Shown in pieces: positions 5,699 through 21,127 of a stretch of 21,127 nucleotides of DNA. Made by a program: the position numbers and the translations under genes. Under the pieces are notes generated by a model. It made no database searches. It was not told the DNA's origin and was given only the letters and a program-made list of their open reading frames with translations. The DNA is from a virus, in IMG/VR virus record IMGVR_UViG_3300028384_000943, positions 1-21,127 of that record; one strand, 5' to 3'. Position 1 is the stretch's first letter; the number at the start of each line of letters is the position of its first letter.

Positions 5699-7048
5699 AT
5701 GCCAGCAATTATTACAAGACAACTTAGAAAAATTTTAGCAAGAAACTTCTTTGACGGTTTCAATCTAAACAGTAACAACTATTATGTTGGAATTGGTCGT
5801 CCAGAGCAGTGGGATTCATCCGACAATGTTCCTGTACCAGAGGACACAATTACTGATATCAGACAGGTTCGTGACCAACTGATGTCCGTAAAAAAGGTTC
5901 AGGCTGTATCACAGGTTGTTCCAAGAAACAACTGGATCAGTGGTACAATCTACTCACAGTATGATGACTTGATTTCAGGATATCCTACACAGCCATATTA
6001 TGTAAAAACTGATAACAATCAGGTATTTGTGTGTTTGGAAACTGGTAGAAATGCATCTGGAACCATCGTCCCTTCAACTGTTGAGCCGCAATCATCAAAT
6101 GACAATTCTTTCAGACTTGGTGATGGATATGTTTGGAAGTTTCTATACACCATATCTGCATCATCTGCTAATCAGTTTATGTCATCAAATTTTATGCCGG
6201 TCTCTAAACAAGGTGTAACTGATTCAAACTCTACTGGCATTGAGTTACGTCATGAATCAGTACAAAATAACACCAAACCGGCAATGATTACAAGCATTGT
6301 CCTGACAAATGGTGGTACCGGTTACACGTCTAGACCTACGGTCGGTATCACCGCGCCGACAGGTGTTGGAGCTTCTGCCTCTGCATTTATTGATTCTGGA
6401 TTAGGTATCGTGACCCACATTACCATAGATGCAGATAGTTCTACTCTTGCACATGGCGCTGCATATTACAACACTCCAACCATTTCAATCACAGGTGGTG
6501 GTGGATCTGGTGCCACTGCCCGAGCAGTTGTTGCCCCTGATTCAGGCGTCGGTAGAGATGCAAGAGAAGATCTAAGGTCAACTGCCGTTATGTTCCACTC
6601 TCAGTTAGAGCCAGATGACAGTGACTTTATTACGGGTCAAGACTTCCGTCAGGTTTCACTGTGGAGAGATCCAAGACAACAGAACGGAGCACTATTTACG
6701 GACTTGACTGGTAATGCACTAGATAAATTAACATTGAGCAGTACCGTGACTGCATTTACTCGTGATAAGAAAATGGAAGGTCAAACCTCGGGTGCAATTG
6801 CATTTGTTGATCACATTGATTCAAATGAGATTTTCTATCACCAAACAGACAGCACAGGTTATATTGCTTTCCAAGATGGTGAAGCACTACAGGAAACAAA
6901 TGGTGCTGGTGACGGCATAATTGACTCTGCTCTTATCAAACCTAAATATGATAAGAATACCGGTGATATTTTGTACATAGACAATCGTGCAGCAGTCCTA
7001 AGAGATACCACACAAACCGAAGATGTAAAAATAATTATTTCGTTCTAA
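5699..7048 (+). CDS. gp8: Baseplate wedge subunit gp8 with Gly-rich insertion
   Basis: The N-terminal half has the gp8 pattern of marine T4-like phages: residues 21-35 (FNLNSNNYYVGIGRP), a PRNNWISGTIYSQYDD segment near 75-90, and the RLGDGYVWKFLYTIS motif near 139-153. gp8 dimers stabilise each baseplate wedge around gp10 and gp7 in T4. The protein has 449 residues against 334 in T4. Most of the surplus is a roughly 84-residue insertion at 196-279 made of two GxGYxxxPxV / GGGGSGATA units, a beta-repeat that recurs in phage surface proteins. The core resumes at about 285. It is followed within 10 bp by the DUF4815 gene, whose TAAGGA site overlaps this stop codon. Confidence 0.88.
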   Translation: MPAIITRQLRKILARNFFDGFNLNSNNYYVGIGRPEQWDSSDNVPVPEDTITDIRQVRDQLMSVKKVQAVSQVVPRNNWISGTIYSQYDDLISGYPTQPYYVKTDNNQVFVCLETGRNASGTIVPSTVEPQSSNDNSFRLGDGYVWKFLYTISASSANQFMSSNFMPVSKQGVTDSNSTGIELRHESVQNNTKPAMITSIVLTNGGTGYTSRPTVGITAPTGVGASASAFIDSGLGIVTHITIDADSSTLAHGAAYYNTPTISITGGGGSGATARAVVAPDSGVGRDAREDLRSTAVMFHSQLEPDDSDFITGQDFRQVSLWRDPRQQNGALFTDLTGNALDKLTLSSTVTAFTRDKKMEGQTSGAIAFVDHIDSNEIFYHQTDSTGYIAFQDGEALQETNGAGDGIIDSALIKPKYDKNTGDILYIDNRAAVLRDTTQTEDVKIIISF

Positions 7049-7058
7049 GGAATAGAAG

Positions 7059-10000
7059 ATGGCAAATACTTTAACGCAAACCCTTTTTGAAACCAAATAC
7101 AAAGACGATTTCAAAGATAGTGACCACTATCATAGAATATTGTTTAACAGTGGTAAGGTTCTTCAGGCAAGAGAATTAACTCAGCTACAGACCATTCTGC
7201 AAAAACAGATCGAGCGGTTTGGTACAAATATATTTAAAGAAGGTGGTGCTGTACTCGGTGGTGGTATTACCGTAAACACAAGATATGAATTTGTCAAACT
7301 CGATACCTCTGTTAATGGTTTGCCGGCCACACCTAACTCATTGCTGGGTGTTACTATTACCGGTGCTACATCAGGCATTATAGGTAAAATTGTAGAGGTT
7401 GTTCCTGCCACGGGTGGTGATCCAGCCACAATTTATGTTGAATACACAAATACAACTGCAGGTGTTGCAGGGGCAACAACTCCAATCCGGTTCACACCTG
7501 GTGAAAACCTGACTAACTCTGTTTCAACTTTAACGGTACAGTTAACTAACACTGTAGCAAATCCTGCATTTGGTACAGGAAGTAAAGCATCAACAAATAC
7601 AGGTGTATTTTTTACCCAAGGTAACTTTGTACAGGCTGATGCACAAAGTAAAATTATATCAAAATATACATCAAACCCTTCACTGAATGTTGGATTTAGA
7701 GTAGCACAAAGAATATTTACGGTAGACGATGATCAGGGGTTATATGATAATCAAGGGGCACTTCCAAATCTTACTGCTCCAGGCGCTGACCGTTATCGCA
7801 TTGACTTGACACTTGCACTTGAATCAGAGGTTGATTCAGATGAAATTTTTGTGTTCTATGCAAAAGTCCAGAAGGGTAAGGTCATTGAGGTTGTATCATC
7901 CGATGAATCATATAATAAAATTGAGGACTTCAGTGCAACCCGTATTAAAGAAATCAACGGTGACTTTATCAAGCGGCCATTTAAAATCAACTATGAAAGA
8001 CATCCGACTGATTCAGCAAATAAGTATTCTCTAAGAGTTTCTCCAGGTCTTGTATATCTCAATGGTTACAGAAACGAATATGCCGGATATACATCTCTTG
8101 ATGTGAATCGTGCTGATGATACCGAACAAATTACAAATGATGTGATATCTATCGGTATCGGTAACTATCTACTTTGTGATAGTTCACTTGGTGTTCCTAA
8201 CATTGATGAGTTCGAGCAGTATGACTTGATGGCCGGATATCGGTACAGTGGTGACAGCCTTGGTACTGCTAGAATTAAATCAGTTGAAGAGGATGGGGCA
8301 AATATCCGATATTACCTGATGGATGTTCAGATGAATGCAGGTAAAGATTTCCGTAAGGTTCGTTCAATCGGTATCAACAGTACAAACTATGCAAATCCAA
8401 TTTTGGAAAATGCAAGTGCTATATTAAAGGACAAAACAAACAACACTCTTCTTTATGGATTTACACACCCTCGTGTCCAAGGTATCGTGAACACGTCATA
8501 TAATGTTCTAAGAAGGGACACAAGAACAACCGATGGTTCCGGTAATGCTTCTTTGCCAACACTTTCTGGTGGTGAATTATATGCAGATACAACTGACTGG
8601 ATCATTGCAAGGACAGATACCGGTGTGTTAATTAGCCCGTCCATTACATTGATTGGTGGTGGAACTGGTGCAACAATTAGTGGTGCACCTACTTCTACAA
8701 ACCTTGAAATTCTATATAAGAAATCGGTCAATGCAACAGCAAGAACAAAAACCATCACAAATACAACTGTCACAACAACCGTGACAACCCCTGGAACTGG
8801 TGCACCATATATCTCACTTGGTAAGGCAGATATCACAGGGATTGAAAGAGTTCGTATCACTGATTCAGACGGTCAAGATGTACAGGCAAGGTTTGTTCTG
8901 GATAACGGACAAAGAGATAACTTCTACGATGTCGGTCGTTTGGTCCTTAAAGGTAACCAAACTGCACCAACAGGTAACGTCTTTGTTCGGTTTAACTACT
9001 ATGCACATGGTTCATCAGGTGACTTCTTTGCACCATCATCTTATCCATCACCTTACAACAAGATTCCAAAATACACCACTACATCAGGTAGAACATATGA
9101 CCTGAAAAATGTATTTGATTTCCGTTCTCGTAAGGATGATACAGGTGCAAACTTTAGTGCCGCAACAGCAAGAGTAAATTCCCTTCCGACAAACACCTCT
9201 TTGGTAACTGCAGATGTAACTTATTATCTTCCTCGCTACGATAAGTTGATTGCCACTAATCCTCTGCAGTATCTGGAGGGTAATTCAAGCTTTAATCCAC
9301 AATTCCCAGAAACACCAGAAGGTGCCATAGAGTTATATCAGATTAAGATGAACGCTGGTTCCATCTCTGATAGTGACATGGAGATGAGAAAGGTTGAGGC
9401 CAAAGGGTTTACGATGAAAGACCTATCACGACTTGAGGATAGGTTGGACAATCTTGAAGAGGTAACTGCTCTCAGTCTTTTGGAAATAGATCTTAAAAAC
9501 TTCTCTGTACTTGATTCAAATGGATTGGATAGAACCAAATCAGGGTTCTTGGTGGATAATTTTGTCGACCATCAGTCATCTGCAGTAGACAACGTTGAAT
9601 ATCGTGCAGCTGTTGATCCTCAGAATAAAATTCTAAGACCTCAGTTCTCAGAAGAAGAAATTAGACTGATTTATGATTCATCATTATCTACGAACACTAT
9701 CTTAAAAGGTGATAATGTTTATATGGATTACAATCATGCTTCATATATCAATCAGGATATCGCCTCTGGTACAGAAAACATTAACCCATTTGCGGTAATC
9801 ACCAACCATGGATTTACTGAACTGTCACCATCCTCTGACCACTGGAAAGAAACTAAGGTTCGTCACACAAAGGTTGTGAGTGGTGGAACAAAGTTGGATA
9901 ACCAGTCAAACAGACTATTCGGTAACTGGGGATGGAACTGGGGTGGAGTTTCTGTCGGTACCAATGTAACAGGTGCAAGGACTGCACAAGAAGGACAGTT

Positions 10001-12134
10001 TAACGTAACACGGGTAAATCGTGTTGTATCAGAACAAACTATCCGTGAAGTCATTGACGAAAAAGTTATTGATGTTGCATTGATTCCATTTATGAGATCA
10101 GTTAAGGTATCTTTCCGTGTACAAGGTTTGAAACCAAATACTCGTCACTATCCATTCTTCGATGGTGTTTCAGTTGCTGATTGGGGTGATGGAACAGTTA
10201 ACTTCTCAAGACATGCCGCAAACTCAACCGTTGCAGGTAACACAAATAATCGTGCAACAAATCATCCAGATGCACCAAATGCAGCAGACCGTGTGCTTAC
10301 CTCTGATGCACAAGGTAAGGTTGAAGGTACATTCTTTATACCAAATACAGATACTATTAGGTTCAGAACCGGTACTCGTGCATTTGAAGTGATGGATGTA
10401 ACAGGTGGTGATCGTGATTTCTCAACATCATCTGCCAAAGGTTTCTTTGATGCAAATGGTGTACTTGAAACAGTGGATCGTACCGTAAAGGCAACCCGTC
10501 AGATTGCAATCAGGTCTGTTGTAACAGGTCGCTCACGGATTAATCCTCCAAGTGATGGTCCAGGGTTTGGTGAACCAGGTGATCCTTTAGCACAATCATT
10601 CTTTGTAAATAAACCAAACGGTATATTCATCACGAAGGTTAAGGTATACTTTAAAACAAAAGACACAACAATACCTGTTCGTTGTGAAATCAGGCCTATG
10701 GTTAATGGATATCCGGATAACATTCCTGTTCCTGGAGCAGTTAAGTTCCTTAATCCTGTTGATGTAAGTGTATCAAATGATTCACTCACTGCAACAGAGT
10801 TTGAATTTGAAGAACCAGTATTCCTGAGCGGATTAACCGAATATGCCTTTGTCCTTCTTGCGGAATCAGTAGAGTATAATGTGTACGTTGCTGAAACTGA
10901 GAAATTTGAGGTTGGATCAACTTCACGTAAAGTTGCAAAACAACCTACACTCGGCTCAATGTTCCTATCACAGAATGGTTCAACTTGGACCGCTGCACAA
11001 AATAAGGACATAAAGTTTGAGTTAATGCAGGCTAAATTTACAAATACATCTGCAGAGGTTATCTTAGAAAATCCAAAACTTCCATTGGATCTGCTTCCTG
11101 TAAATCCATTTGAGGTTGACTCGGGTACAAACGTTGTAAAAGTTAATCAGCCGAACCACGGTTACATTGCAGGTGACACTGTTATCATAAGTGGTCTTGA
11201 TAGTTCAACATCATTCGGTAACGGTCTGACCGGTGCAAGTATGAATGGTTCCAGAACTATTATTGATGTGGATGAAAACTTCTACACGGTTACTGCTGGT
11301 GACTCATCTACTGCAGGTTCGGTATTCGGTGGAACGTCCGGTCTTGCAACTCAGAATATACACTATGAAATTCTGACACCTAAGATTCAAACCTTGATTC
11401 CAAAGAATACTGACATCACAATAGATGCAAAGCTCACTGACGGTAAATCTCTTGCCGGTAACGAAACACAATACACTAAGGCCGGTACATACAGCAGAAT
11501 TATCCTCAACGAAGATAACTACTTCTTGACACCTAAGGTTCTTGCCAACCACGAACGTGAGGCAAATTCAATGAGTGGTGCAAAATCTGCAACATTTAAA
11601 TTAAATCTAACATCTGCAGACAGTGATTTGTCTCCTGTAATTGATTTACAGAGAACAGGTATGTGGATGTTCCATAATGAAATTGATTTTCAGGATTCTG
11701 CAGGATCGCTTGGTGTAACCGTAAACTTGAACAGAAACAACCCAATTGATTATGCCGATGAAACCGACCCTAACGGTGGTTCACATCTGTCAAAACATGT
11801 CGTGAAACCTGTCATATTGGAATCTCCATCTGTGGGTGTTAAGGTGTTACTATCTGCAAACAAACCATCGGTTGCTGACTTTGATGTATACTATAAGGTT
11901 GCAACCGAAGATCAGAACTTTGATGATTTAAATTGGACAGAAATTGCTGCCGAAGAGGTTATTCAGAGTGATGAAAATCCGGCAGTGTTTAGAGATTACA
12001 CTTACTTGATTGGAGACACCGTAGGGTTTGTCGATCCATTTGATAAGTTTATAATTAAGATTGTGATGAAATCTAGAAGCAGTGCTTTGGTTCCTTCATT
12101 TAAAGATCTACGAGTAATTGCATTGGCGGTATAA
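7059..12134 (+). CDS. Giant DUF4815-type virion structural protein
   Basis: At 1691 residues this is the largest gene in the window. The start shows the DUF4815 hallmark: a YKDDFKDSDHYHRILF segment (14-29) followed by ARELTQLQTILQKQIERFG (37-55). Proteins with this domain sit just downstream of gp8 in T4-like cyanophages and are detected in virions; they occupy roughly the place of T4 gp10 and associated wedge parts, but direct homology to gp10 is not something I can show. The middle is a chain of beta-rich segments with Gly/Thr/Asn-rich turns. The last ~80 residues (VYYKVATE ... FRDYTYLIG ... FKDLRVIAL) form the conserved tail of the family. The start is preceded by TAAGGA, and the stop overlaps the next start as TAATG. 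Confidence 0.85.
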   Translation: MANTLTQTLFETKYKDDFKDSDHYHRILFNSGKVLQARELTQLQTILQKQIERFGTNIFKEGGAVLGGGITVNTRYEFVKLDTSVNGLPATPNSLLGVTITGATSGIIGKIVEVVPATGGDPATIYVEYTNTTAGVAGATTPIRFTPGENLTNSVSTLTVQLTNTVANPAFGTGSKASTNTGVFFTQGNFVQADAQSKIISKYTSNPSLNVGFRVAQRIFTVDDDQGLYDNQGALPNLTAPGADRYRIDLTLALESEVDSDEIFVFYAKVQKGKVIEVVSSDESYNKIEDFSATRIKEINGDFIKRPFKINYERHPTDSANKYSLRVSPGLVYLNGYRNEYAGYTSLDVNRADDTEQITNDVISIGIGNYLLCDSSLGVPNIDEFEQYDLMAGYRYSGDSLGTARIKSVEEDGANIRYYLMDVQMNAGKDFRKVRSIGINSTNYANPILENASAILKDKTNNTLLYGFTHPRVQGIVNTSYNVLRRDTRTTDGSGNASLPTLSGGELYADTTDWIIARTDTGVLISPSITLIGGGTGATISGAPTSTNLEILYKKSVNATARTKTITNTTVTTTVTTPGTGAPYISLGKADITGIERVRITDSDGQDVQARFVLDNGQRDNFYDVGRLVLKGNQTAPTGNVFVRFNYYAHGSSGDFFAPSSYPSPYNKIPKYTTTSGRTYDLKNVFDFRSRKDDTGANFSAATARVNSLPTNTSLVTADVTYYLPRYDKLIATNPLQYLEGNSSFNPQFPETPEGAIELYQIKMNAGSISDSDMEMRKVEAKGFTMKDLSRLEDRLDNLEEVTALSLLEIDLKNFSVLDSNGLDRTKSGFLVDNFVDHQSSAVDNVEYRAAVDPQNKILRPQFSEEEIRLIYDSSLSTNTILKGDNVYMDYNHASYINQDIASGTENINPFAVITNHGFTELSPSSDHWKETKVRHTKVVSGGTKLDNQSNRLFGNWGWNWGGVSVGTNVTGARTAQEGQFNVTRVNRVVSEQTIREVIDEKVIDVALIPFMRSVKVSFRVQGLKPNTRHYPFFDGVSVADWGDGTVNFSRHAANSTVAGNTNNRATNHPDAPNAADRVLTSDAQGKVEGTFFIPNTDTIRFRTGTRAFEVMDVTGGDRDFSTSSAKGFFDANGVLETVDRTVKATRQIAIRSVVTGRSRINPPSDGPGFGEPGDPLAQSFFVNKPNGIFITKVKVYFKTKDTTIPVRCEIRPMVNGYPDNIPVPGAVKFLNPVDVSVSNDSLTATEFEFEEPVFLSGLTEYAFVLLAESVEYNVYVAETEKFEVGSTSRKVAKQPTLGSMFLSQNGSTWTAAQNKDIKFELMQAKFTNTSAEVILENPKLPLDLLPVNPFEVDSGTNVVKVNQPNHGYIAGDTVIISGLDSSTSFGNGLTGASMNGSRTIIDVDENFYTVTAGDSSTAGSVFGGTSGLATQNIHYEILTPKIQTLIPKNTDITIDAKLTDGKSLAGNETQYTKAGTYSRIILNEDNYFLTPKVLANHEREANSMSGAKSATFKLNLTSADSDLSPVIDLQRTGMWMFHNEIDFQDSAGSLGVTVNLNRNNPIDYADETDPNGGSHLSKHVVKPVILESPSVGVKVLLSANKPSVADFDVYYKVATEDQNFDDLNWTEIAAEEVIQSDENPAVFRDYTYLIGDTVGFVDPFDKFIIKIVMKSRSSALVPSFKDLRVIALAV

Positions 12135-12337
12135 TGAAAGCAAGAGTTGAAAATCACAATACTCTAGTTCGTGATTTAAATAATAATGCAATATTGAATG
12201 TTGACACCTCGTCAATTAAAAAGGCAAAGATTGCTAAAAATTTAAGAAGATCACAGACGCAAGAGATTGAAGATATAAAGAATGATGTGACTGAACTTAA
12301 GTCCATGATGAGAGAAATACTGGATAGGCTACGATAA
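12134..12337 (+). CDS. Small coiled-coil protein, conserved baseplate neighbour
   Basis: The 67-residue product is basic in its middle (SSIKKAKIAKNLRR) and ends in a heptad-like helix, EIEDIKNDVTELKSMMREI, that should form a coiled coil. It begins MKARVENHNTLVRDLNNNA, a pattern I associate with a small gene that follows the DUF4815 gene in many T4-like marine phages. Both ends overlap neighbours by one base (TAATG), so translation is probably coupled to the giant upstream gene and to the fibre-like gene downstream. The function is not known; a small assembly factor or minor baseplate component is plausible. Confidence 0.75.
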   Translation: MKARVENHNTLVRDLNNNAILNVDTSSIKKAKIAKNLRRSQTQEIEDIKNDVTELKSMMREILDRLR

Positions 12338-13230
12338 TGGCAAGAAAAATACATATCGACAGTGATTATACTCTCCAGCAATGGATTGACAGTCAGAATA
12401 CCATGTCTGACTATATGGGTAATCTTGACAGTTTCAGATCAGATATCTTAGATAACTTTGTGGTCACTCCTCATAATAGTTCAACTGGGGCAAGTTTTGT
12501 CACAGCATTGAATTACCTCTATGATCCATTAATGCAAAAATTGTTGGGTATATTTAACGGTACGGGTTCTACAAATTTTGATGAACTTGAACTAAGAGTA
12601 GATTCTGGTACATTCAATATACTCAGAATAGATATGCAAGACTCTACTGTTGGAAAGAATAGTTTAGGAAGATCCACTCTCTTTGCTGCCGATGCTCATG
12701 TTCGTGACAGTTATGAGGATGGAGATTCTATCGGATCAACTAACCTTGCACAAAGCATCATCAACGGTTATGTTCATCTAATACCAGATTTTAACTATGA
12801 TTTGTATATTGAAAGTAATGCTACCTTTGCAAACATTGTTGTGAATGGTTCCTTCAATGCATCTCTTTTAGATAGTGCAAAGTTCAATCATTATCAGGTT
12901 GTTGATAGTTCAAGAGTTGACAAACTCATTGCTGATAGCAATGGTGTGGTCACAATATCACAAACACACATATTGAATTTTCATCCACAAAATCCGGATT
13001 TAGATTCGATAAGTGTCAGTAACGTTTTAAGAAATGTTAATCTCATCAGTGATAGTGCTGTTATCACTGATGCTAATATAAATAATTTAATCTTGGATAG
13101 TAATCTGGATTTTGACGGAATAAGATTTAGAACAGCAAGTAAATTTTTAATCACGGATTCCTCGAGTCCAGATTCAGCAAACGCCCCAGGTGTGATATAT
13201 CTTGGTGGATTTAAATTAGATTCGGTGTAG
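12337..13230 (+). CDS. Fibre-like structural protein, first of two paralogues
   Basis: The 297-residue protein has an N-terminal head domain (QQWIDSQNTMSDYMGNLDS, then FVTALNYLYDP) that recurs in the next gene, followed by a beta-rich region full of Asp-Ser dipeptides (16 in total) in contexts such as LLDSAKF, ISDSAVI and PDSAN. The shared head probably docks the protein on the baseplate, while the repeat part forms a shaft or adhesin. The start codon overlaps the upstream stop. An 11-bp inverted repeat and an internal TATAAATA sit near its 3' end. I do not recognise a specific T4 counterpart. Confidence 0.65.
   Translation: MARKIHIDSDYTLQQWIDSQNTMSDYMGNLDSFRSDILDNFVVTPHNSSTGASFVTALNYLYDPLMQKLLGIFNGTGSTNFDELELRVDSGTFNILRIDMQDSTVGKNSLGRSTLFAADAHVRDSYEDGDSIGSTNLAQSIINGYVHLIPDFNYDLYIESNATFANIVVNGSFNASLLDSAKFNHYQVVDSSRVDKLIADSNGVVTISQTHILNFHPQNPDLDSISVSNVLRNVNLISDSAVITDANINNLILDSNLDFDGIRFRTASKFLITDSSSPDSANAPGVIYLGGFKLDSV
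13044..13072. repeat. Perfect 11-bp inverted repeat inside a fibre-like gene
   Basis: CATCAGTGATA (13044-13054) and TATCACTGATG (13062-13072) are exact reverse complements around a 7-nt spacer GTGCTGT; a G-U pair could close the loop by one more step. The hairpin lies five bases upstream of an exact TATAAATA. There is no U-tract, but AT-rich sequence follows. Confidence 0.75.
13077..13084 (+). promoter_or_regulatory. Possible internal late promoter TATAAATA
   Basis: This exact TATAAATA lies inside the first fibre-like paralogue, about 150 bp before the start of the second (13234). It could give separate late transcription of the second paralogue and the genes after it. As it falls in AT-rich coding sequence, chance is possible; the adjoining hairpin makes it more interesting. 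Confidence 0.4.
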
Positions 13231-13233
13231 AAA

Positions 13234-13920
13234 ATGACAAGAAAAGAAGAGATATTAACCAATGCTCCAATAGGACAATGGGTAACTAAAACAAATCTGA
13301 TGTCAGATTACATCGGTGACCTTGACCTGTTGGACTCAGCATTTAGGGCATATGATAGTGATATATACAAATCAAATGATTCAAATGTTGTTTTTGCAAT
13401 TAACTATCTTTGGGATGCTATCGACAGCATCAACTCTTTATTAAACAGTGGTGTTCTTACACTCAAAAACATCAAGGCAGATTCAGCAACTTTTCGTATC
13501 ATTAGAGCAGGTATGCTTGTTGCCGATAGTGCTACCATTGATAGTGCCTATATTCAAGACCTTACCGTTTCCGGAGTCTTGGATGTAGATAGCGCAGAAT
13601 TTGATATCATCAATGTAAATACAATTAACGTTGACAGTGGTGGAACTCTTTACATTGACAGTGCAACAGTAAATTATTTAAATGCTAATTTTATTCTAAC
13701 CGATAGTGCTAAAATAAATAAACTGCAATCTGGTAGCATCATCTCTGATAGTGCTACGATTGACAGTGCATTCATAAATAACTTAACGGTAAGTGAATCA
13801 TTCACCTTTGATAGTAACAAATTTACGGATGCACATCTACTTACAATTAAAAATGAATCTGGCACAATTGTTCTTGCCGGATATATCTTGTCTACGGATT
13901 CTGATGTAGGAACTCCATAA
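13234..13920 (+). CDS. Fibre-like structural protein, second paralogue, DSA repeats
   Basis: The 228-residue product shares the head motif of the preceding gene (GQWVTKTNLMSDYIGDLD, then NVVFAINYLWD) and lies only 3 bp after it, pointing to tandem duplication. The rest is a run of short beta repeats: 15 Asp-Ser dipeptides, nine of them Asp-Ser-Ala. The unit DSATIDSA-[YF]-I-x-[DN]-LTVS occurs twice, at residues 98 and 172. It is shorter in the distal region than its paralogue. No strong Shine-Dalgarno sequence precedes the ATG, so translation may depend on the upstream ribosome. A trimeric fibre or fibre connector is the likely role, by inference. Confidence 0.65.
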   Translation: MTRKEEILTNAPIGQWVTKTNLMSDYIGDLDLLDSAFRAYDSDIYKSNDSNVVFAINYLWDAIDSINSLLNSGVLTLKNIKADSATFRIIRAGMLVADSATIDSAYIQDLTVSGVLDVDSAEFDIINVNTINVDSGGTLYIDSATVNYLNANFILTDSAKINKLQSGSIISDSATIDSAFINNLTVSESFTFDSNKFTDAHLLTIKNESGTIVLAGYILSTDSDVGTP

Positions 13921-14924
13921 TGGTGAATAGAGCATTTATTGAAAACGGATCCACAGGAATAAGAGAGACAACTCTTGCTGAGCATAATAACATGCTTGGC
14001 AGGATTGCATACCTTTATCAACAAAGTCAGCCGATTACATTATCCGTTGTGGCAAGTAACGGTAACATCTCACCGAACATGACAGACACCAGGTATAAGT
14101 CTGGTACCGCTGCAAGAAACACATCTGGTGCTTGGCCTGCAGTTACATCATATCCACCAGAAAGTACAACAGGGGAACCTGAACTGGTGGTAGGTACAAC
14201 TTATGATAAGATTTCTCAAACAGTCTCAACACCCACATCCTTTACAAATTCAGATTATCAGTCACTAAATATAAAACCTATATACCGTGAAACTGATGGA
14301 TCATTAAGAGAAATGTCATACAATCAGATATTGGCATACTTCATTGATGGTGTAGCTGATGCCATGGTTTCAACTAACACAGTTTCAGATGCTGCGGGTG
14401 GATCCTACTTTATATCAACTTCATCATCTGTTTCTGGTGCAACAAACCTTGGTACTGTCTTTGTTGACACTCATGCAAATCTTTCTGGATATTTAGCATC
14501 TAACATAGGAACAGCCGGTACATATCAAGATGTTTTTACTACCACAACATATAGTTTGTTTAGAGTAGATTCCGCTATTTCATCTCAAAGTTCTGGGTAT
14601 AGAACACCTCTTGTGGTTGACTATTCAGCAAATAGGAAGAACACTCCTGCAGGTTTAAGACATATGACATATGCAGAGTTTGATAGTTTATTCGAACCAC
14701 TAGTTAGATATGCATTACACAGTGTTGCAGGATACACACTTAGGTATAATATAAATGGTAGTGGTACAAGGCAAGGTACTCAGATTGCAAACAGACAGAT
14801 GATTGGTGTGAGTGGAGCATATACCAAATATGCAGCAACTCAAGATGATTACCGAGCACAAGAATTTCCTAACGGTACTCTTGTTGTACAGAATGCATTT
14901 AACCTTAATTTAGAGAGAACATAA
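13920..14924 (+). CDS. Virion structural protein of unknown role
   Basis: The 334-residue protein starts through a TAATG overlap with the second fibre-like paralogue. It is rich in Ser, Thr, Tyr, Gly and Asn and has few cysteines and no obvious membrane segment, as expected of a beta-rich capsid or tail surface protein. Recognisable stretches are IRETTLAEHNNMLGRIAYLY near the N terminus, and later LRHMTYAEFDSLFEPLVRYA and NGTLVVQNAF near the C terminus. I do not recognise a T4 counterpart. Its place between fibre genes suggests a fibre or baseplate tip component. Confidence 0.6.
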   Translation: MVNRAFIENGSTGIRETTLAEHNNMLGRIAYLYQQSQPITLSVVASNGNISPNMTDTRYKSGTAARNTSGAWPAVTSYPPESTTGEPELVVGTTYDKISQTVSTPTSFTNSDYQSLNIKPIYRETDGSLREMSYNQILAYFIDGVADAMVSTNTVSDAAGGSYFISTSSSVSGATNLGTVFVDTHANLSGYLASNIGTAGTYQDVFTTTTYSLFRVDSAISSQSSGYRTPLVVDYSANRKNTPAGLRHMTYAEFDSLFEPLVRYALHSVAGYTLRYNINGSGTRQGTQIANRQMIGVSGAYTKYAATQDDYRAQEFPNGTLVVQNAFNLNLERT

Positions 14925-14925
14925 G

Positions 14926-15423
14926 ATGCAAGGACATAAGTTTATAAAGGCAATGTTTGCCAATAATGAAAAGAACATCATTGAATCTCATTGGCAAAGT
15001 GAAGATAATGATAATGAGGTTAGAATAGAATTTTGTCCTGCTGAAGATGGTGACGAAGTATATGAGGAAATTAAAAAGCATATGGACATCGAGACAATAC
15101 ACGATGAAACATATGAGGCCATCAAAGCACAAGATCGTGTTTATCGTGAAGCAATTCTGGAATTAGCCAAACAAGAAGGATATGTTTGGGATATACAAGA
15201 CCTAGAAACTGACACAAAAATTGAACACATATTTAAGATTGCTACGAAAGCAATATTTGAAGACACAGATGCTGCATTAGAAAAAGAGAAATTATTTCTA
15301 TACAAACTTCAACTTTTTGAGGTTGGGAAAATTAAAGGTTCAAAAGATACAGCCTTAAAAAAGAAATTGAGACAAGCAAAGACTGTTATCGAGGCCACAA
15401 AGATTGCTTGTGAATTTTATTGA
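14926..15423 (+). CDS. Small acidic helical protein, unknown function
   Basis: The 165-residue product begins one base after the preceding stop. The N-terminal half is acidic (SEDNDNEVRIEF, EDGDEVYEEIKK), and the C-terminal half is helical and Lys-rich (DAALEKEKLFLYKLQLFE, KKKLRQAKTVIEA). It does not look like a structural beta protein; a chaperone or assembly factor for the neighbouring fibres would suit its place, but I have no motif to prove it. Its TGA stop at 15421-15423 touches the stop codon of the convergent radical SAM gene with no base between them. Confidence 0.6.
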   Translation: MQGHKFIKAMFANNEKNIIESHWQSEDNDNEVRIEFCPAEDGDEVYEEIKKHMDIETIHDETYEAIKAQDRVYREAILELAKQEGYVWDIQDLETDTKIEHIFKIATKAIFEDTDAALEKEKLFLYKLQLFEVGKIKGSKDTALKKKLRQAKTVIEATKIACEFY

Positions 15424-16515
15424 TTAAATATCTAAGGTTCTTAGTTGTACTCTTGCATTGGGATCATAAGAAGAACAATTTCTTGTACATTGAGGAATAG
15501 GTGATTCTTCTATAGACTTTGGTAGATATTCGGTCCACCATTTATTCTTAAGCATATTTTCTATTGTATTATAATAGATATTATTATCCCATCTATTTTT
15601 ATTATATTCTTTAATAAGATCAGCTGAATAAAATTGTTCTTGATGACTAATATCATCTGAACCAAGGTCTGAATATCCAAAATAACAACAAGGCCAAACT
15701 TGGCCATCAAAGTTTATATTGACTTTGTTGATCAAAGCCCACCTGCAGACAACTTTCCTTTTATATTCTTCATAATCTTCTTCATCGGACATGTGAGCAA
15801 TAAAGGTGTTTTTTAATTTAGATCCATCAGCCCGTTCTAAAATCTGAATTTTACCTTTTTCATCTACAAACTCATAAACATCGTCCTTAGAAGATTTATT
15901 ATAGAATCTTTCACTCATTACAAAGGTATGTTGTGTTGACCCTGCTTTTGTAGCAACTTCTTTTATCTCTTTCATATATGGTTGATTGTGTTTAAATAGA
16001 ATAGTCTGTGATGTAGTCCTTGCAAGAGTTTGAGAAAAAGCCTCCATATTTCTTAGAATTTTATCTAAGTTTGTATTCCTTCTGTAATGTGAATGTATCT
16101 CTTGAGTATGGCCATCGATGTCCCATTTTACATGTAAACGCGGTCCATGAGTTTTTCTTTGAAGTCCTCCAAACTTAAACCAAAAATCTTCATCCCTCAT
16201 ACTTCCATTAGTGTCAATTGAAACTGAAAAATCTGGTCTTTCTTTATTCACATCCAAAAAATATTCTATGATTTCATGTATGTCTGGATGCATCATAGTA
16301 TCACCCCAGGTTGGCACCAAGGCAAGAAAATTTATTCTGCTAAGTAGATCTGGAGTAAATGTTCTAAAAATTTTTTCTTTAGGAACATGAACAAGAGGTA
16401 CTCTCTCATTTCTAGCAAGACCGTTTTTATTTGTTCTATGACATTGTGGGCATTTTGCATTACAATAAGTTGTAATGTCATATGATATATTTAGATTATG
16501 GGGTTCAAATAACAT
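15424..16515 (-). CDS. Radical SAM protein with SPASM-like C-terminal cysteines
   Basis: The radical SAM signature CxxxCxxC is intact (Cys18, Cys22, Cys25 in YCNAKCPQC) and would hold the 4Fe-4S cluster that cleaves S-adenosylmethionine. TWGDTMMHPD (69-78) stands where the SAM-binding GGE-type motif usually is. Later cysteines at 257, 276, 277, 343 and 347 look like ligands of an auxiliary cluster (SPASM or twitch type). Such enzymes modify peptides or small molecules such as sugars. The protein has 363 residues, within the usual range. It is the last gene of the minus-strand cassette, 1 bp after a glycosyltransferase gene, so its substrate may be a glycan or a glycosylated protein. The substrate is unknown. 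Confidence 0.85.
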   Translation of the reverse strand: MLFEPHNLNISYDITTYCNAKCPQCHRTNKNGLARNERVPLVHVPKEKIFRTFTPDLLSRINFLALVPTWGDTMMHPDIHEIIEYFLDVNKERPDFSVSIDTNGSMRDEDFWFKFGGLQRKTHGPRLHVKWDIDGHTQEIHSHYRRNTNLDKILRNMEAFSQTLARTTSQTILFKHNQPYMKEIKEVATKAGSTQHTFVMSERFYNKSSKDDVYEFVDEKGKIQILERADGSKLKNTFIAHMSDEEDYEEYKRKVVCRWALINKVNINFDGQVWPCCYFGYSDLGSDDISHQEQFYSADLIKEYNKNRWDNNIYYNTIENMLKNKWWTEYLPKSIEESPIPQCTRNCSSYDPNARVQLRTLDI

Positions 16516-16516
16516 T

Positions 16517-17134
16517 CTATATCTTAAAATCCTTGTTTACTTGATGTTGAAAATGACAAGCATCTGTCGGATACTTTATAAAATGATCTAATATATAATT
16601 CCATGGTTGTCCTATATCGTTGTTAGGAACAGAATATCTTTCTATGATATATGACAAAAATACCTCATTGTTTCTTATCCAACAAGAGCTCAACTCTTCG
16701 GGATATAAATTATCATCTAGTGCTTCTAGGAACTTGGCCTGTGTTGCAGGTAATCTTTCTGAACACCTAAGATACTCAGATCTCAACCATTTTGTCACAC
16801 CAATAGGCATTTGATACACAGACACATTATCAAGATTAAATGTATCAAATATCACTTTATCTGTTTTAGGTATCACATCCAAATCTAAATATAGAACTTC
16901 ATCATACTGACTTAATAAATTTTCAGTTTGAAACAGTTTATAGAACTGAACATCAACATAATTATTTTGATCAGGAGTAAATATCTCATAGTCAGAATTA
17001 CACAACTGAGCATATTCTTTTTGTTTTTCTATGAGTTTATCTTTGTGAAAATTAAATGATGTCACCTTCTCTTCTGTTGCTGAAGGATGGTTATCAGTTA
17101 AATCTGACCAAACACTAAAGATTATTCTTTTCAA
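16517..17134 (-). CDS. Putative DxD glycosyltransferase (short paralogue)
   Basis: The 205-residue protein carries YLDLDVIP with Asp84 and Asp86, the DxD pattern that binds a metal and a nucleotide-sugar in GT-A glycosyltransferases. The N-terminal layout (KDKLIEKQKEYAQL, then FYKLFQTENLLSQYDEVLYL) parallels the neighbouring 268-residue gene, with the DxD at the same residue number, so the two are paralogues. It is shorter mainly between the DxD and the C terminus; the ends (QVNKDFKI here, VINKNFEY there) still align, so it is compact rather than cut off. Its start overlaps the upstream gene by 20 bp and its stop is 1 bp from the radical SAM start. Acceptor and sugar are unknown. Confidence 0.7.
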   Translation of the reverse strand: MKRIIFSVWSDLTDNHPSATEEKVTSFNFHKDKLIEKQKEYAQLCNSDYEIFTPDQNNYVDVQFYKLFQTENLLSQYDEVLYLDLDVIPKTDKVIFDTFNLDNVSVYQMPIGVTKWLRSEYLRCSERLPATQAKFLEALDDNLYPEELSSCWIRNNEVFLSYIIERYSVPNNDIGQPWNYILDHFIKYPTDACHFQHQVNKDFKI

Positions 17135-17921
17135 TGTATTTCCTTACATACTCGAAATTTTTATTTATGACATGCACTATGTTTGGATTATCTTTTATAG
17201 ATTTACGGACCATTGTAAGAGTGTAATGCCACTTTTTATCTAAGTCTAAAAGATTGACATTGTTTTGAAGCATCTTGTAACTGAACAGCGTTTCATTATC
17301 ATAACCAAACATATTTGAAATTATCTCCGGAAACATACCATCCTCTGTTGCCAATTCGTGCATATAATCTAGGTCATTTTCAAAATCGTCAAAGTATGCA
17401 AGTTTTTTCAACTGTTCATTGTTTGCTAATATTATACCTGTGTTATACACATCATTTTCACCGTCCATACCATTATACATTAACATTGCCTTTGTGTTCC
17501 AATATTTTGCAGTAGGAGATCTTATAGTTGAAAGAGCTTTATTTTTCCACTTCATCATATTTACATTAAAATCTTTCATTGCTCCATCATCGTGATTGAC
17601 TCTTACTGCAATTCCTTTAGACACGTCTATATCAAATATATTTTCTTTTGTTAAGGGAACAACATCAAAGTCAAAGTAAACAACTTTATTATACTTCTTG
17701 CTGTTTTCATATAGCAAATGTATCTTGTAAAAGTTTATGATATTATATTCGGTGATGTATGGTCTGTTTTTAAATGTTTCCTTGTATTGTTTATACTGGT
17801 CATCGTCACCATAGAGTTTGTATTTTACCCCTATAGCTTCTGCATACTGTTCCTGTCGTCTTTTTAGAAAGTCATAATGATCTTTTAAGTTTTCAGTTTC
17901 TTTATAAAATGAAAATATCAT
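17115..17921 (-). CDS. Putative DxD glycosyltransferase (long paralogue)
   Basis: The 268-residue protein has VYFDFDVVPL with Asp84 and Asp86 as the likely DxD metal site, preceded by the short helical segment FYKIHLLYENSKKYNKV. A NTGIILANNEQLKKL region further on and the acidic LATEDGMFPEI segment are typical of the second half of small GT-A glycosyltransferases, where the acceptor site forms. It has no signal peptide and no membrane helix, so it acts in the cytoplasm. It overlaps the methyltransferase gene by 4 bp upstream and its paralogue by 20 bp downstream, evidence of one operon. The sugar and acceptor cannot be read from the sequence. Confidence 0.75.
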   Translation of the reverse strand: MIFSFYKETENLKDHYDFLKRRQEQYAEAIGVKYKLYGDDDQYKQYKETFKNRPYITEYNIINFYKIHLLYENSKKYNKVVYFDFDVVPLTKENIFDIDVSKGIAVRVNHDDGAMKDFNVNMMKWKNKALSTIRSPTAKYWNTKAMLMYNGMDGENDVYNTGIILANNEQLKKLAYFDDFENDLDYMHELATEDGMFPEIISNMFGYDNETLFSYKMLQNNVNLLDLDKKWHYTLTMVRKSIKDNPNIVHVINKNFEYVRKYIEKNNL

Positions 17922-18547
17922 CTACCTATCACCATAAATCTATCATATTCACCTTTCCAGTTTTTTGTACCAGAGTAATATATCTCTCTTAACGGTAATT
18001 CTGAAATAAAATGATCAAGCGAATCGTGGCAGTTAATGTGACTGTCTATATCATAATAGTTATTTGATTGTAGACACACAACCATGTCTTTATTCTTTTT
18101 CACTAACATTTCATTTAAATCTTCTTGGTCTATATGCTCACATGCAGTACATATCAATACTTTTTTTTCATTATTTCTTGTTTCACTGTTTGCAAACTTT
18201 AGACCATCCTCAGTAATAAAATGAATCTTATCATGTACCTTTAACTGTTCACCATATATTTTGCACACAGGATCTAGATCATAGTTCCAAATATCTCCGT
18301 CAAACTTTGAATCCTTTATGAGATATGATAACAAACCATACCAACCACCAATCACTATACAAGCATCTTTATCTTGCATGTATGGTTGTAATTCTTTTAC
18401 TGCCCAAATTTTATTTTCAAATTGTCCACGACTTAAAGAATCAAGGACATCTTTTATGCGAAAAAGATCAATGTCCTTACTCTTTTTTGAATCGTTGTAA
18501 ACATTAGTGAGGCAACTGATTATTTTCTCAAAGAATAATTGTTTCAT
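17918..18547 (-). CDS. Putative class I SAM-dependent methyltransferase
   Basis: I chose the ATG at 18547 (209 residues, starting MKQLFFEKI), because the longer frame to 18634 would overlap the upstream gene by over 100 bp; this start overlaps by 20 bp, like another junction in the cassette. IVIGGWYGLLS (64-74) fits the glycine-rich SAM-binding motif I, YDLDP (89-93) the acidic residue after strand 2, and ICTACEHID (122-130) the motif after strand 4. The fold is therefore a Rossmann methyltransferase, related to small ones seen in T4-like marine phages. The target is unknown; the glycosyltransferase neighbours suggest a sugar or a modified protein. A DNA or RNA target is possible, but no NPPY-type catalytic motif is seen. 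Confidence 0.65.
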   Translation of the reverse strand: MKQLFFEKIISCLTNVYNDSKKSKDIDLFRIKDVLDSLSRGQFENKIWAVKELQPYMQDKDACIVIGGWYGLLSYLIKDSKFDGDIWNYDLDPVCKIYGEQLKVHDKIHFITEDGLKFANSETRNNEKKVLICTACEHIDQEDLNEMLVKKNKDMVVCLQSNNYYDIDSHINCHDSLDHFISELPLREIYYSGTKNWKGEYDRFMVIGR

Positions 18548-19067
18548 GTATTTTATTATCAAATGTTTTATAGTTGAAGTTATAGTCCCAAATATATCGG
18601 TCCATACCAGCATATTTGCGTGTGTTATAATCAATGTTACGGGAAAACTTATCCCAATATTCTGTATTGCGATATGATGTCCAAGTCATGATAGAGCTGT
18701 TTAACATGGTTTCATATGCATGAGATTCCCAATACATATCTTCTTTCCAGTAATCTCTCATAAAGTGTGGAACTCTCCAGTCTATAGATTCAATATAAGG
18801 AAAAGGGTTATCAATGATGTCGATATCGAGATCAAACATGACACAACGGCCATCCAATACAAAGTCGTGTCTGAATACATGAAGCTTGTTCCACCATTTT
18901 GCAAGTTTAGGTTTGTTAGGAATTTCTATACAGTCTATTATAACATCTTTTTTGTCCTCTGTAAAACAAAAAATAGGGTAATCTGCATAGTTCATTAACT
19001 TTTCTGCTTGACGGTTAACATCATCAGCAGTATATTTTTTACCATGTTTTAACAGTATTACATTCAT
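18528..19067 (-). CDS. Putative small glycosyltransferase, first gene of the cassette
   Basis: The 179-residue product begins KYTADDVNRQAEKL (11-24), then a CFTED strand, a WWNKLHVFRHDF segment (58-69) and MFDLDIDIIDN (77-87) with the DxD at Asp79-Asp81. This order is typical of a small GT-A-like family in bacteria and phages. The C-terminal GMDRYIWDYNF fits the position of the conserved acidic residue that closes the active site. It is not closely similar to the two paralogous glycosyltransferases, so the cassette holds two types. It is the promoter-proximal gene; the site AAGGA lies 11 bases upstream of its ATG, next to a TATAAT on the same strand. The sugar and acceptor are unknown. Confidence 0.72.
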   Translation of the reverse strand: MNVILLKHGKKYTADDVNRQAEKLMNYADYPIFCFTEDKKDVIIDCIEIPNKPKLAKWWNKLHVFRHDFVLDGRCVMFDLDIDIIDNPFPYIESIDWRVPHFMRDYWKEDMYWESHAYETMLNSSIMTWTSYRNTEYWDKFSRNIDYNTRKYAGMDRYIWDYNFNYKTFDNKIHETIIL

Positions 19068-19080
19068 GAAGTTATATATC

Positions 19081-19099
19081 CTTATAAATAGATTATAAG
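19081..19099. promoter_or_regulatory. Palindromic divergent promoter region
   Basis: CTTATAA (19081-19087) and TTATAAG (19093-19099) are exact inverted copies around a 5-bp spacer. On the plus strand the element includes TATAAATA (19083-19090), the T4 late promoter word, 50 bp before the ATG at 19140. On the minus strand the same element reads TATAAT (19097 down to 19092), 25 bp before the cassette's first ATG, with AAGGA at 19083-19079. One site may therefore serve both directions. Activity in the minus direction is inference. Confidence 0.6.
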
Positions 19100-19139: not shown

Positions 19140-19490
19140 ATGGCAGAATACGAAAAATTTACGATTGACAAAGGTTCCGATATAGCAATTCAATTGGACC
19201 TTACAGACACATCTGGAAATCCCAAAAATCTCACCAACTATAGTGCTGCCGCTAAAATGAAGCGCAACTATAACAGCACTGACTCTGACACATTAACATT
19301 TGCTGCAGCAATTAATGTGCCCGAAACTGATGGTATCCTAACTCTTTCCTTGACAAATGCTCAAACAGATACTCTTAAAGTAGGCAACTATGTATATGAT
19401 GCAGAGATCTCTTATGTTGATTCAAACGGATCAACTGTTGTGGAGAGAATCCTTGAAGGAAAAATTAGAGTTAGCCCATCGGTGACATAA
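19140..19490 (+). CDS. Small Ig-like (BppU N-terminal-like) structural protein
   Basis: The 116-residue protein has the pattern of a BppU-N-like beta-sandwich domain found alone or at the start of phage baseplate and receptor-binding proteins: FTIDKGSDIAIQLDLTDTSG, then NLTNYSAAAKMKRNY, then LTLSLTNAQTDTLKVGNYVYDAEI and a final ILEGKIRVSPSVT strand. Such domains attach adhesins to the baseplate. There is no clear Shine-Dalgarno site before the ATG and a stop codon lies 21 bp upstream in frame, so no earlier start exists. Its TAA is followed at once by the next ATG. Confidence 0.75.
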   Translation: MAEYEKFTIDKGSDIAIQLDLTDTSGNPKNLTNYSAAAKMKRNYNSTDSDTLTFAAAINVPETDGILTLSLTNAQTDTLKVGNYVYDAEISYVDSNGSTVVERILEGKIRVSPSVT

Positions 19491-19733
19491 ATGGCAACAA
19501 ATATTACACATATTAAAAAGATTACCATAGGTACCCCTGTCCGAAAGGTCACAGGTGCTGCTGCTCAAACAATTGGTGACTTAACTGATGTAACCATACT
19601 TGCTGAAAGTAACGGTAATATATTAGCATATAATGCTGCGACTGGCAAGTTTGAATCTACTAGTTCTTTAAAAGATTTAATCATATCAGCAGGTGGTCAA
19701 GCATCGGTTGATTCTGCAGGAGGAGATTTCTAA
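19491..19733 (+). CDS. Small fibre-associated protein
   Basis: The 80-residue product starts directly after the previous stop and its own stop overlaps the tail-fibre start (TAATG). Its core, GDLTDVTILAESNGNILAYN followed by ATGKFES, is a short module widespread in tail-fibre and collar proteins of T4-like phages, usually as one of several repeats in a long chain. Here it stands alone with a basic N terminus and a Gly/Ser/Asp-rich tail. It could be an adaptor between the Ig-like protein and the fibre, or a fibre piece split off by a gene break. The AGGAGGAG site for the next gene lies within its last codons. Confidence 0.6.
   Translation: MATNITHIKKITIGTPVRKVTGAAAQTIGDLTDVTILAESNGNILAYNAATGKFESTSSLKDLIISAGGQASVDSAGGDF
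19718..19725 (+). promoter_or_regulatory. Strong ribosome binding site deciding the fibre start
   Basis: AGGAGGAG lies 7 bases before the ATG at 19733, which selects that start over a second in-frame ATG at 19775 created by a tandem duplication. The second ATG has no such site before it. Confidence 0.8.
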
Positions 19734-19816
19734 TGGCAAATAGACTGCTTATAAAAACCTCCAATAGAACTCCTATGTCAAATAGAATTCTTATAAAAAC
19801 CTCCAATAGAACTCCT
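19733..19816 (+). repeat. 42-bp tandem duplication at the fibre N terminus
   Basis: Units 19733-19774 and 19775-19816 match at 39 of 42 bases, and the last 27 bases are identical. The length keeps the frame and duplicates a 14-residue start peptide, including the initiator Met. Confidence 0.9.
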
Positions 19817-21127
19817 GTAATTACAGAAGCATTAAACAATTCTGCAAAAATTCTTTTAACTGGTGAGTTCGGTTACACATACACTACAGGCGATTCTGCT
19901 GGTGGGGATAGACTCTTTATTGGTGCTGGCGGTAACACTTCTGGTAGATCTCGTGAAGTTCATGTTGTTGGTGGTAAATATTTCACTGATATGTTGGACC
20001 ATCCACGTGGTCAACTTCATGAAAATGCTGCAATCATTACTGATGCTGACAAGAAGATCAACCAACTCAAAGTTGATAATATCACTGTTGACGGAAATGC
20101 AATTACCACATCATCTGGTGATCTTACCCTAAATCCTACTGGTGGAACTATCGATGCATCCACTTCCACTATTTCAAACGTTGTTGACCCTACAGCTGCT
20201 CAAGAGGCCGCCACAAAGAACTATGTAGACACAAAAGATATTGTATTCGTTTCTGGTGATACAAATGTAGACGGTACCGGTAATGTTCAAACCGGTTCAT
20301 CAATTCAACTTAAAGGTGCTTGGAATACCAACACAAAAAGAACAGATATCTCTGGTAACTCAGTTAAGGTCGAGGTCAATGTAGATTCTGATCTACTTGG
20401 ATTGTCTAGACTTACGGTTGATAATATTGATGTCAACGGAAATACCGTTACCACAACTTCTGGCGACTTGACATTAAACTCTGCTGGCGGTACTGTTATT
20501 GTCGGTGGAAATTTACAGATTGACGGAACTACAACAACTGTTAACTCAACAAACCTTACAGTAGATGATAAGAATATTACTCTGGCATCAGGCGCTGCAA
20601 ATCCTACTGCTGCTGACTCTGCTGGTATCCATGTAGACGGTGCTAATGCTGATATCTTCTACGATGCACCGACTGACACTTGGAACTTCAATAAAGATGT
20701 TGTTGCTCCAAACATTGATGTGAGTGGTAGCATTACAGTTACTGGTGGAATCACTGGTGGATATAACGGATTTGATTCTGATTTCACTCAAAAGTCTACA
20801 ACAGATCTAAGTGAAGGAACAAATCTTTATTATACGACGGTTCGAGCAGATTCAGATTTTGATGTCAGACTTGCTACAAAAACAACTGATAATCTAACTG
20901 AAGGTTTATCAAACCTCTACCATACAGCTGCTCGTACAAGGCAATCAATTTCTGCATTTGATGCAGGTGGATTTGGTTCTTTAAGTTATGACAACTCGAC
21001 CGGTATTTTCAGCTATCAGGGGGTCATTTCTTCAGAGATTCGTGGTCTTTTTAGTGGTGCAGGTGATCTATCATATAACTCTAGCACTGGTCAATTCAGT
21101 GTAGACGTTGAACAGGTTTATTCAAAG
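19733..21127 (+). CDS. Repeat-built tail fibre protein (3' partial)
   Basis: The frame runs from the ATG at 19733 to the right edge without a stop (465 codons visible), so the C terminus and probable receptor-binding tip are missing. The N terminus is a duplicated 14-residue element (MANRLLIKTSNRTP, MSNRILIKTSNRTP). Shaft modules follow: LxVDNIxVxGNxxTTxSGDLTLN occurs at about residues 112 and 227. VDPTAAQEAATKNYVDT (about 150-166) is a well-known phage fibre motif. Two NLYxTxxR units begin at 364 and 394, in the TxxLSEGxxNLYxTxxR context seen in many tail fibres. It would form a trimeric fibre attached to the baseplate, possibly via the two small proteins just upstream. Confidence 0.85.
   Translation, partial: MANRLLIKTSNRTPMSNRILIKTSNRTPVITEALNNSAKILLTGEFGYTYTTGDSAGGDRLFIGAGGNTSGRSREVHVVGGKYFTDMLDHPRGQLHENAAIITDADKKINQLKVDNITVDGNAITTSSGDLTLNPTGGTIDASTSTISNVVDPTAAQEAATKNYVDTKDIVFVSGDTNVDGTGNVQTGSSIQLKGAWNTNTKRTDISGNSVKVEVNVDSDLLGLSRLTVDNIDVNGNTVTTTSGDLTLNSAGGTVIVGGNLQIDGTTTTVNSTNLTVDDKNITLASGAANPTAADSAGIHVDGANADIFYDAPTDTWNFNKDVVAPNIDVSGSITVTGGITGGYNGFDSDFTQKSTTDLSEGTNLYYTTVRADSDFDVRLATKTTDNLTEGLSNLYHTAARTRQSISAFDAGGFGSLSYDNSTGIFSYQGVISSEIRGLFSGAGDLSYNSSTGQFSVDVEQVYSK

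Follow-up and report, generated by a model that had tools for sequence, protein, structure and literature searches.

Phage O-antigen conversion (gtrABC) uses phage-encoded glycosyltransferases. T4 is the phage precedent for DNA glucosylation, and its DNA glucosyltransferases have the GT-B fold. In SAR11-type phages, glycosyltransferases and radical SAM genes of the fibre region have been noted before as host-surface genes. The published description of the pelagimyophage host recognition cluster places tail fibres, GT8-type glycosyltransferases and radical SAM cassettes in a hypervariable stretch behind VrlC and reads the enzymes as modifying the O-chain (Zaragoza-Solas 2020, PMC7029224). Here, we analyzed an incomplete record, 21,127 bases long, from an uncultured marine T4-like virus, the whole of which we call the window. 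By place and gene content, the enzyme-bearing slot of the window falls under the host recognition cluster as defined there (PMC7029224); it is a variant of the published cluster, not a new system. The enzymes move jointly with a small gene of the late operon, and the boundaries of the moved block are fixed; this offers a handle on what the enzymes modify and makes a formerly vague annotation testable in cultured phages such as Mosig.

Layout of the slot and its enzymes

Besides T4-type baseplate genes, the window encodes a VrlC-like giant protein along with structural and fibre proteins; the order is VrlC-like, fibres, enzymes, fibres, and the gp14 end lies beyond the contig (Table 1). Five minus-strand ORFs fill exactly 15424-19067 and are transcribed in the order GTc, MT, GTa, GTb, SAM. 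The overlap is 4 nt between MT and GTa and 20 nt between GTa and GTb, and a gap of 1 nt separates GTb from SAM; the overlap of MT and GTc is 20 nt from the conserved MT ATG (18547) and 107 nt from the earliest possible start. On the left edge, the stop of upL at 15423 directly meets that of SAM at 15424; on the right edge, GTc and r19140 (19140) are divergent with 72 bp between them. An overlapping five-gene minus-strand operon that abuts a plus-strand gene on the left and diverges from fibre genes on the right is what the original prediction had described, and the same holds for its higher AT content: GC content is 31.3% in the slot and 36.7% and 39.4% on its two sides. Since slot GC is lower than that of the flanks in 66 of 66 relatives, the drop is a lineage trait, and recent acquisition judged from low GC was rejected.

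Two further features of the window should be mentioned. A pair of paralogous structural genes with recurring DSA/TIDSA motifs (12337-13920) lies in a block absent from the cyanophage empty sites, and a short in-frame tandem repeat (NRLLIKTSNRTPMSNRILIKTSNRTPV) is found at the start of the large fibre gene (19733-19820).

Table 1. Features of the window, with positions counted from its first base
Feature	Position	Strand	Description
VrlC-like giant protein	7059-12134		named after Mosig and cyanophage homologues
fibA	13920-14924	+	Ser/Thr-rich structural protein with a homologue family; left flank
upL	14926-15423	+	165 aa, non-enzymatic, conserved family; left member of the exchange module
SAM	15424-16515	-	radical SAM enzyme; SPASM/twitch-like C-terminal cysteines C257, C276, C277, C343, C347
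GTb	16517-17134	-	GT8-like paralogue of GTa, TTG start; Pfam Glyco_transf_8 0.0013
GTa	17115-17921	-	intact GT-A glycosyltransferase (predicted fold); DFD, NTG, HxxxK motifs
MT	17918-18547	-	predicted class I SAM-dependent methyltransferase fold; 209 aa when started at the conserved ATG, with the reading frame open to 18634
GTc	18528-19067	-	DxD glycosyltransferase, second type; opens the minus-strand operon
Late promoter of r19140	19083-19090	+	T4-type, TATAAATA; right boundary of the exchange module
r19140	19140-19490	+	conserved, 'L-shaped tail fibre assembly' type; PHROG 3304 5.7e-17, PHROG 1084 1e-23; right flank

Three DxD glycosyltransferases of two types had been predicted; the DxD motif is present in GTa, GTb and GTc, and GTc is of the second type, but three working enzymes are doubtful because of a deletion in GTb. 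In the family alignment of GTa, D84/D86, N160-T161-G162, H250 and K254 are invariant, and the DxD, the [FY]N[ST/A]G-type motif, the C-terminal His-x3-Lys and the GT-A fold of the predicted model mark it as a GT8-like GT-A enzyme. Pfam gives no match for GTa itself, and a PDB profile search with its alignment (A1) returned nothing convincing; in Foldseek, the AlphaFold model (pLDDT 92) matched GT8/GT24/GT6 structures (E 3e-7), and its matches include LARGE1, UGGT, LgtC and the PBCV-1 capsid glycosyltransferase. GTb keeps its DxD (D84-D86) and the C-terminal His/Lys. An in-frame deletion of about 47 residues relative to its relatives (a DNA gap of 141 nt against the close relative L029, at window 16763-16797) leaves the GT8-like motif set of GTb without the NTG segment. 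Because this segment is a conserved core motif, GTb is probably impaired, as judged from the alignment, and gene decay after duplication is a possible history. In one contig (L215:7267-9009), homologues of GTa and GTb form a single fused protein of 580 aa, suggesting that the two enzymes work jointly. Please note that this contig is binned as Rhodobacteraceae and holds fibA, an upL-like gene and the cassette all together. For GTc, the invariant D79/D81 and a match to the glycosyltransferase PHROG 1962 (4.4e-7) point to a glycosyltransferase, with an additional weak match to glycogenin.

The AlphaFold model of MT (pLDDT 90) has more than 900 PDB matches at E<=0.001 in Foldseek, with SAM-methyltransferases making up most of the top ones; its fold also comes close to that of nicotianamine synthase, and profile comparison gave spermidine synthases at 3e-4. 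The model thus predicts a Rossmann SAM-binding class I fold, in agreement with the class I methyltransferase first proposed. The fold comparison suggested at that time returned GT-A for GTa and a SAM-methyltransferase fold for MT (rows of L028 were left out of the alignments for the structure models).

The last gene of the operon had been called radical SAM/SPASM-like. Its radical SAM part holds, with a Pfam Radical_SAM match of 1e-8 and an invariant CxxxCxxC, whereas the SPASM part scores 19.3 bits (0.0014) in Pfam, under the cut-off of 21.5, with five extra invariant cysteines present (invariant in relatives: 18, 22, 25, 257, 276, 277, 343, 347). By profile, the closest protein is BlsE cytosylglucuronate decarboxylase, a sugar-acting enzyme (9.5e-6). 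Scanning 84,980 bacterial and archaeal species turned up only six relatives of SAM. Two, L215 and L216, have this phage-type cassette together with fibA, and a third (L217) matches a viral contig (L016), both being 11,572 b long, so that at this search depth SAM appears to be largely a virus family. In L029, the place of SAM is taken by a radical SAM-type gene (6033-7226) that is unrelated to it and lies on the other strand. Adjoining radical SAM relatives also occur in other phage contigs without VrlC and upL (L012, L013, L016-L018).

The slot in relatives and the exchange unit

All five enzyme families are conserved among relatives, and modification enzymes occupy the same slot in every informative one. 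The 58 complete distinct slots comprise 40 all-sense, 11 all-antisense and seven mixed cases, so the earlier wording of a cassette 'inserted antisense' is misleading. The length of complete slots varies between 904 b and over 10 kb. The enzyme order GTc>MT>GTa>GTb>SAM is conserved, with GTc>MT and MT>GTa the commonest neighbour pairs in window-type cassettes; other slots add a carbamoyltransferase, aminotransferases, B12-binding, radical SAM, desaturase, nitroreductase or Asp/Asn hydroxylase genes. The dedicated modification pathway beside fibre genes that had been envisaged is supported. C48C1-type slots (L097:8428-9947) always hold a glycosyltransferase and a second conserved protein of 230-240 aa with HxN and GHY motifs, possibly an Fe/2OG-type oxygenase, a reading that found no support from Pfam or PDB profiles (A9).

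The late promoter TATAAATA stands upstream of r19140 in nearly all relatives. With its own promoter, the fibre operon that follows does not depend on the slot, and cassettes can therefore sit in either direction. Sense cassettes usually overlap upL (mostly by -1 to -41 nt) and hence belong to the late structural operon. No clear late promoter was found for the antisense operon of the window, or for antisense cassettes generally, and a sigma-70 scan (29 sites against 26.5 expected) was uninformative.

DNA comparison places the boundaries of the exchanged block. The window and L030 are 75.6% identical up to 14928, i.e., to the start of upL at 14926, where similarity is lost; it recovers weakly in GTa-MT-GTc and fully from 19082, at the r19140 late promoter. 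L040 and L041 share 94.7% identity as far as the first part of fibA and 93% from just before r19140 onward, and between these flanks upL and the enzymes are unrelated and reversed (r19140 100%, upL 27%, MT 24%). L032 and L040 show the converse, with upL and the enzymes 85% identical and the flanks about 67-75%. Since the breakpoints fall at the upL start codon and the r19140 late promoter (19083), the exchangeable unit, as these alignments delimit it, is upL plus the enzymes, about 4.2 kb. Relatives swap such blocks as one unit. The original prediction had treated upL as flank; the DNA breakpoints and the fibA-seeded scan below assign it to the exchange unit instead.

In a first survey, viral contigs were searched from SAM, GTa and r19140 seeds, which gave about 100 loci; at least one enzyme of these families lies between upL and r19140, or in what the contig covers of this stretch, in 65 of 65 distinct upL loci. 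It should be kept in mind that surveyed loci are related by descent and counts are not independent events. A upL-seeded scan, with closer subsets of the upL alignment as query and partly overlapping the earlier contigs, found an enzyme beside upL in 44 of 45 distinct cases. The fibA-seeded scan of 40 distinct loci gave 36 with upL and enzymes, four with neither and none with only one. upL is absent from the whole genomes of six module-free isolates and present in those of Mosig and C48C1. For the comparison of flanks in cassette-less relatives that had been proposed, empty sites exist (P-HM2, S-CAM9 and ACG-2014f run VrlC, one small gene, then r19140); enzyme-less relatives also lack upL. The one exception, and the sole upL found without enzyme neighbours, is L213:1151-3386, where fibA-upL is followed directly by a neck gene, with neither enzymes nor r19140.

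In partial Mantel tests, upL correlates with GTa (0.65) and MT (0.50) given fibA, whereas fibA given upL gives 0.18 with GTa and 0.12 with MT; upL thus tracks the enzymes more than fibA does, and some fibA link is kept by upL (upL-fibA given MT 0.44). Other roles of upL were considered as well. A plain fibA chaperone was rejected, as the window and L030 are 74% identical in fibA and only 37% in upL, and fibA occurs without upL. A RiPP (Nif11-type) precursor was also rejected, with a sub-threshold Nif11 match in one of 41 upL members. PDB profile searches with the upL (A5) and fibA (A14) alignments gave nothing convincing, and the A5 matches to TFIID bromodomain entries were taken as chance.

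What the cassette may modify

The observation behind the original prediction is confirmed, and its interpretation overall is partly supported; decoration of phage fibres or of the host surface, as first proposed, is plausible. We lean toward a swappable late module that decorates a virion protein, with upL as adaptor, chaperone or acceptor. The analysis shows the protein families and folds, the late-promoter context, the upL-enzyme linkage and the block exchange; a virion protein as substrate, the order of reactions and the role of upL are inferred. The glycosyltransferases would most likely attach at least one sugar to a fibre or adhesin protein, e.g., fibA, a candidate acceptor, or the large fibres; the methyltransferase-fold and radical SAM enzymes would tailor the sugar or peptide; upL, from the late structural operon, would be the dedicated non-enzymatic partner; and phages would trade upL and the enzymes jointly between the junction at the upL start and the r19140 late promoter. 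Swapping would then probably alter the chemistry of the viruses' own fibres. The PBCV-1 match of GTa, a virion-protein glycosyltransferase, counts for virion decoration. Counting against it are the equally good resemblance of GTa to LgtC, the antisense cassettes with their lack of a clear late promoter, the presence of Ser/Thr-rich structural proteins other than fibA, the enzyme-free upL of L213, and the fact that neighbouring genes co-transfer without functional coupling. More tentatively, and rather doubtfully, upL may mark a class of late modules that is exchangeable and widespread among marine T4-like phages, in which a carrier or acceptor is combined with interchangeable glycosyltransferases, radical SAM and tailoring enzymes; if so, decoration chemistry would be swapped as a unit, like fibre tips.

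The main rival is host-surface modification, in which lipopolysaccharide or surface glycans of the infected cell are altered and superinfection is blocked or recognition changed. LgtC, to which GTa is structurally close, is a lipo-oligosaccharide galactosyltransferase, and O-chain modification is the published reading (PMC7029224). We nevertheless consider this rival unlikely, though it deserves serious attention: most cassettes lie within the late structural operon, and the linkage to upL, a structural-operon gene, is left unexplained. A strongly hydrophobic segment occurs in only six of 420 slot ORFs (at least 100 aa, hydropathy cut) and in none of the window's slot, so no O-antigen flippase machinery is visible; gtr O-antigen conversion relies on a membrane flippase and a bactoprenol glucosyltransferase, and no flippase-type membrane proteins were found in the slots. 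Modification of a virion protein fits better because the enzymes are late and soluble, lie next to fibres and are linked to a protein of the structural operon.

A small-molecule or cofactor pathway, whose enzymes make a diffusible or virion-carried compound, seems improbable to us. The richer slots of Mosig and other relatives, which hold several radical SAM genes besides carbamoyltransferase, aminotransferase and desaturase genes, would suit it, as would the nearness of SAM to BlsE, a sugar decarboxylase of an antibiotic pathway; the window, however, has only glycosyltransferases and two tailoring-type enzymes, with no scaffold-making enzyme among them, and neither the fibre-side position nor the upL linkage would be accounted for. 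It is very improbable that the enzymes are neutral hitchhikers at a site that simply tolerates insertions, flanked by fibA and an independent late promoter, with upL co-transferring by adjacency. The conserved promoter of r19140 does let the slot tolerate inserts either way, GTb appears to be decaying, and L213 has a upL without enzymes, but where the module is missing upL is missing too, even if fibA stays, upL stays with enzymes in phages whose fibres and enzymes differ (e.g., C48C1), and catalytic motifs are conserved. DNA hypermodification by glucosylation or similar is scarcely credible. The T4 precedent and weak QueC matches in a few other slots speak for it; against it are the predicted GT-A fold of GTa (GT-B in the T4 DNA glucosyltransferase pathway), the fibre-module location and a window in which no base-modifying enzyme was found, consistent with the earlier remark that nothing here points to DNA.

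Comparison with known systems

Within the open-access literature, and in the accessible parts of the published accounts, the exchange-unit definition, the upL partner, the orientation flips and the GTb deletion were not encountered, and no experiment on such a cassette was found. PBCV-1 A64R (2p6w) shares a related GT-A fold and is a viral glycosyltransferase acting on a virion protein; it belongs to a eukaryotic virus capsid, however, and the similarity to GTa is one of remote fold only (about 12% identity). Among phages, the C48C1 type (OQ984149) shares upL followed by a glycosyltransferase, a second gene and an r19140 homologue, all in sense; unlike the window it uses other enzymes (GTn and an unassigned protein, possibly 2OG-oxygenase-like) and has no fibA. 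The slot of Pelagibacter phage Mosig EXVC030M (56-71 kb) shares MT and GTa homologues (GTa 45% identity), upL and fibA, but holds about 20 genes, including a carbamoyltransferase, aminotransferases, nitroreductases and a desaturase. Compared with the published host recognition cluster (PMC7029224), the exchange unit is here resolved to upL and the enzymes, with defined boundaries.
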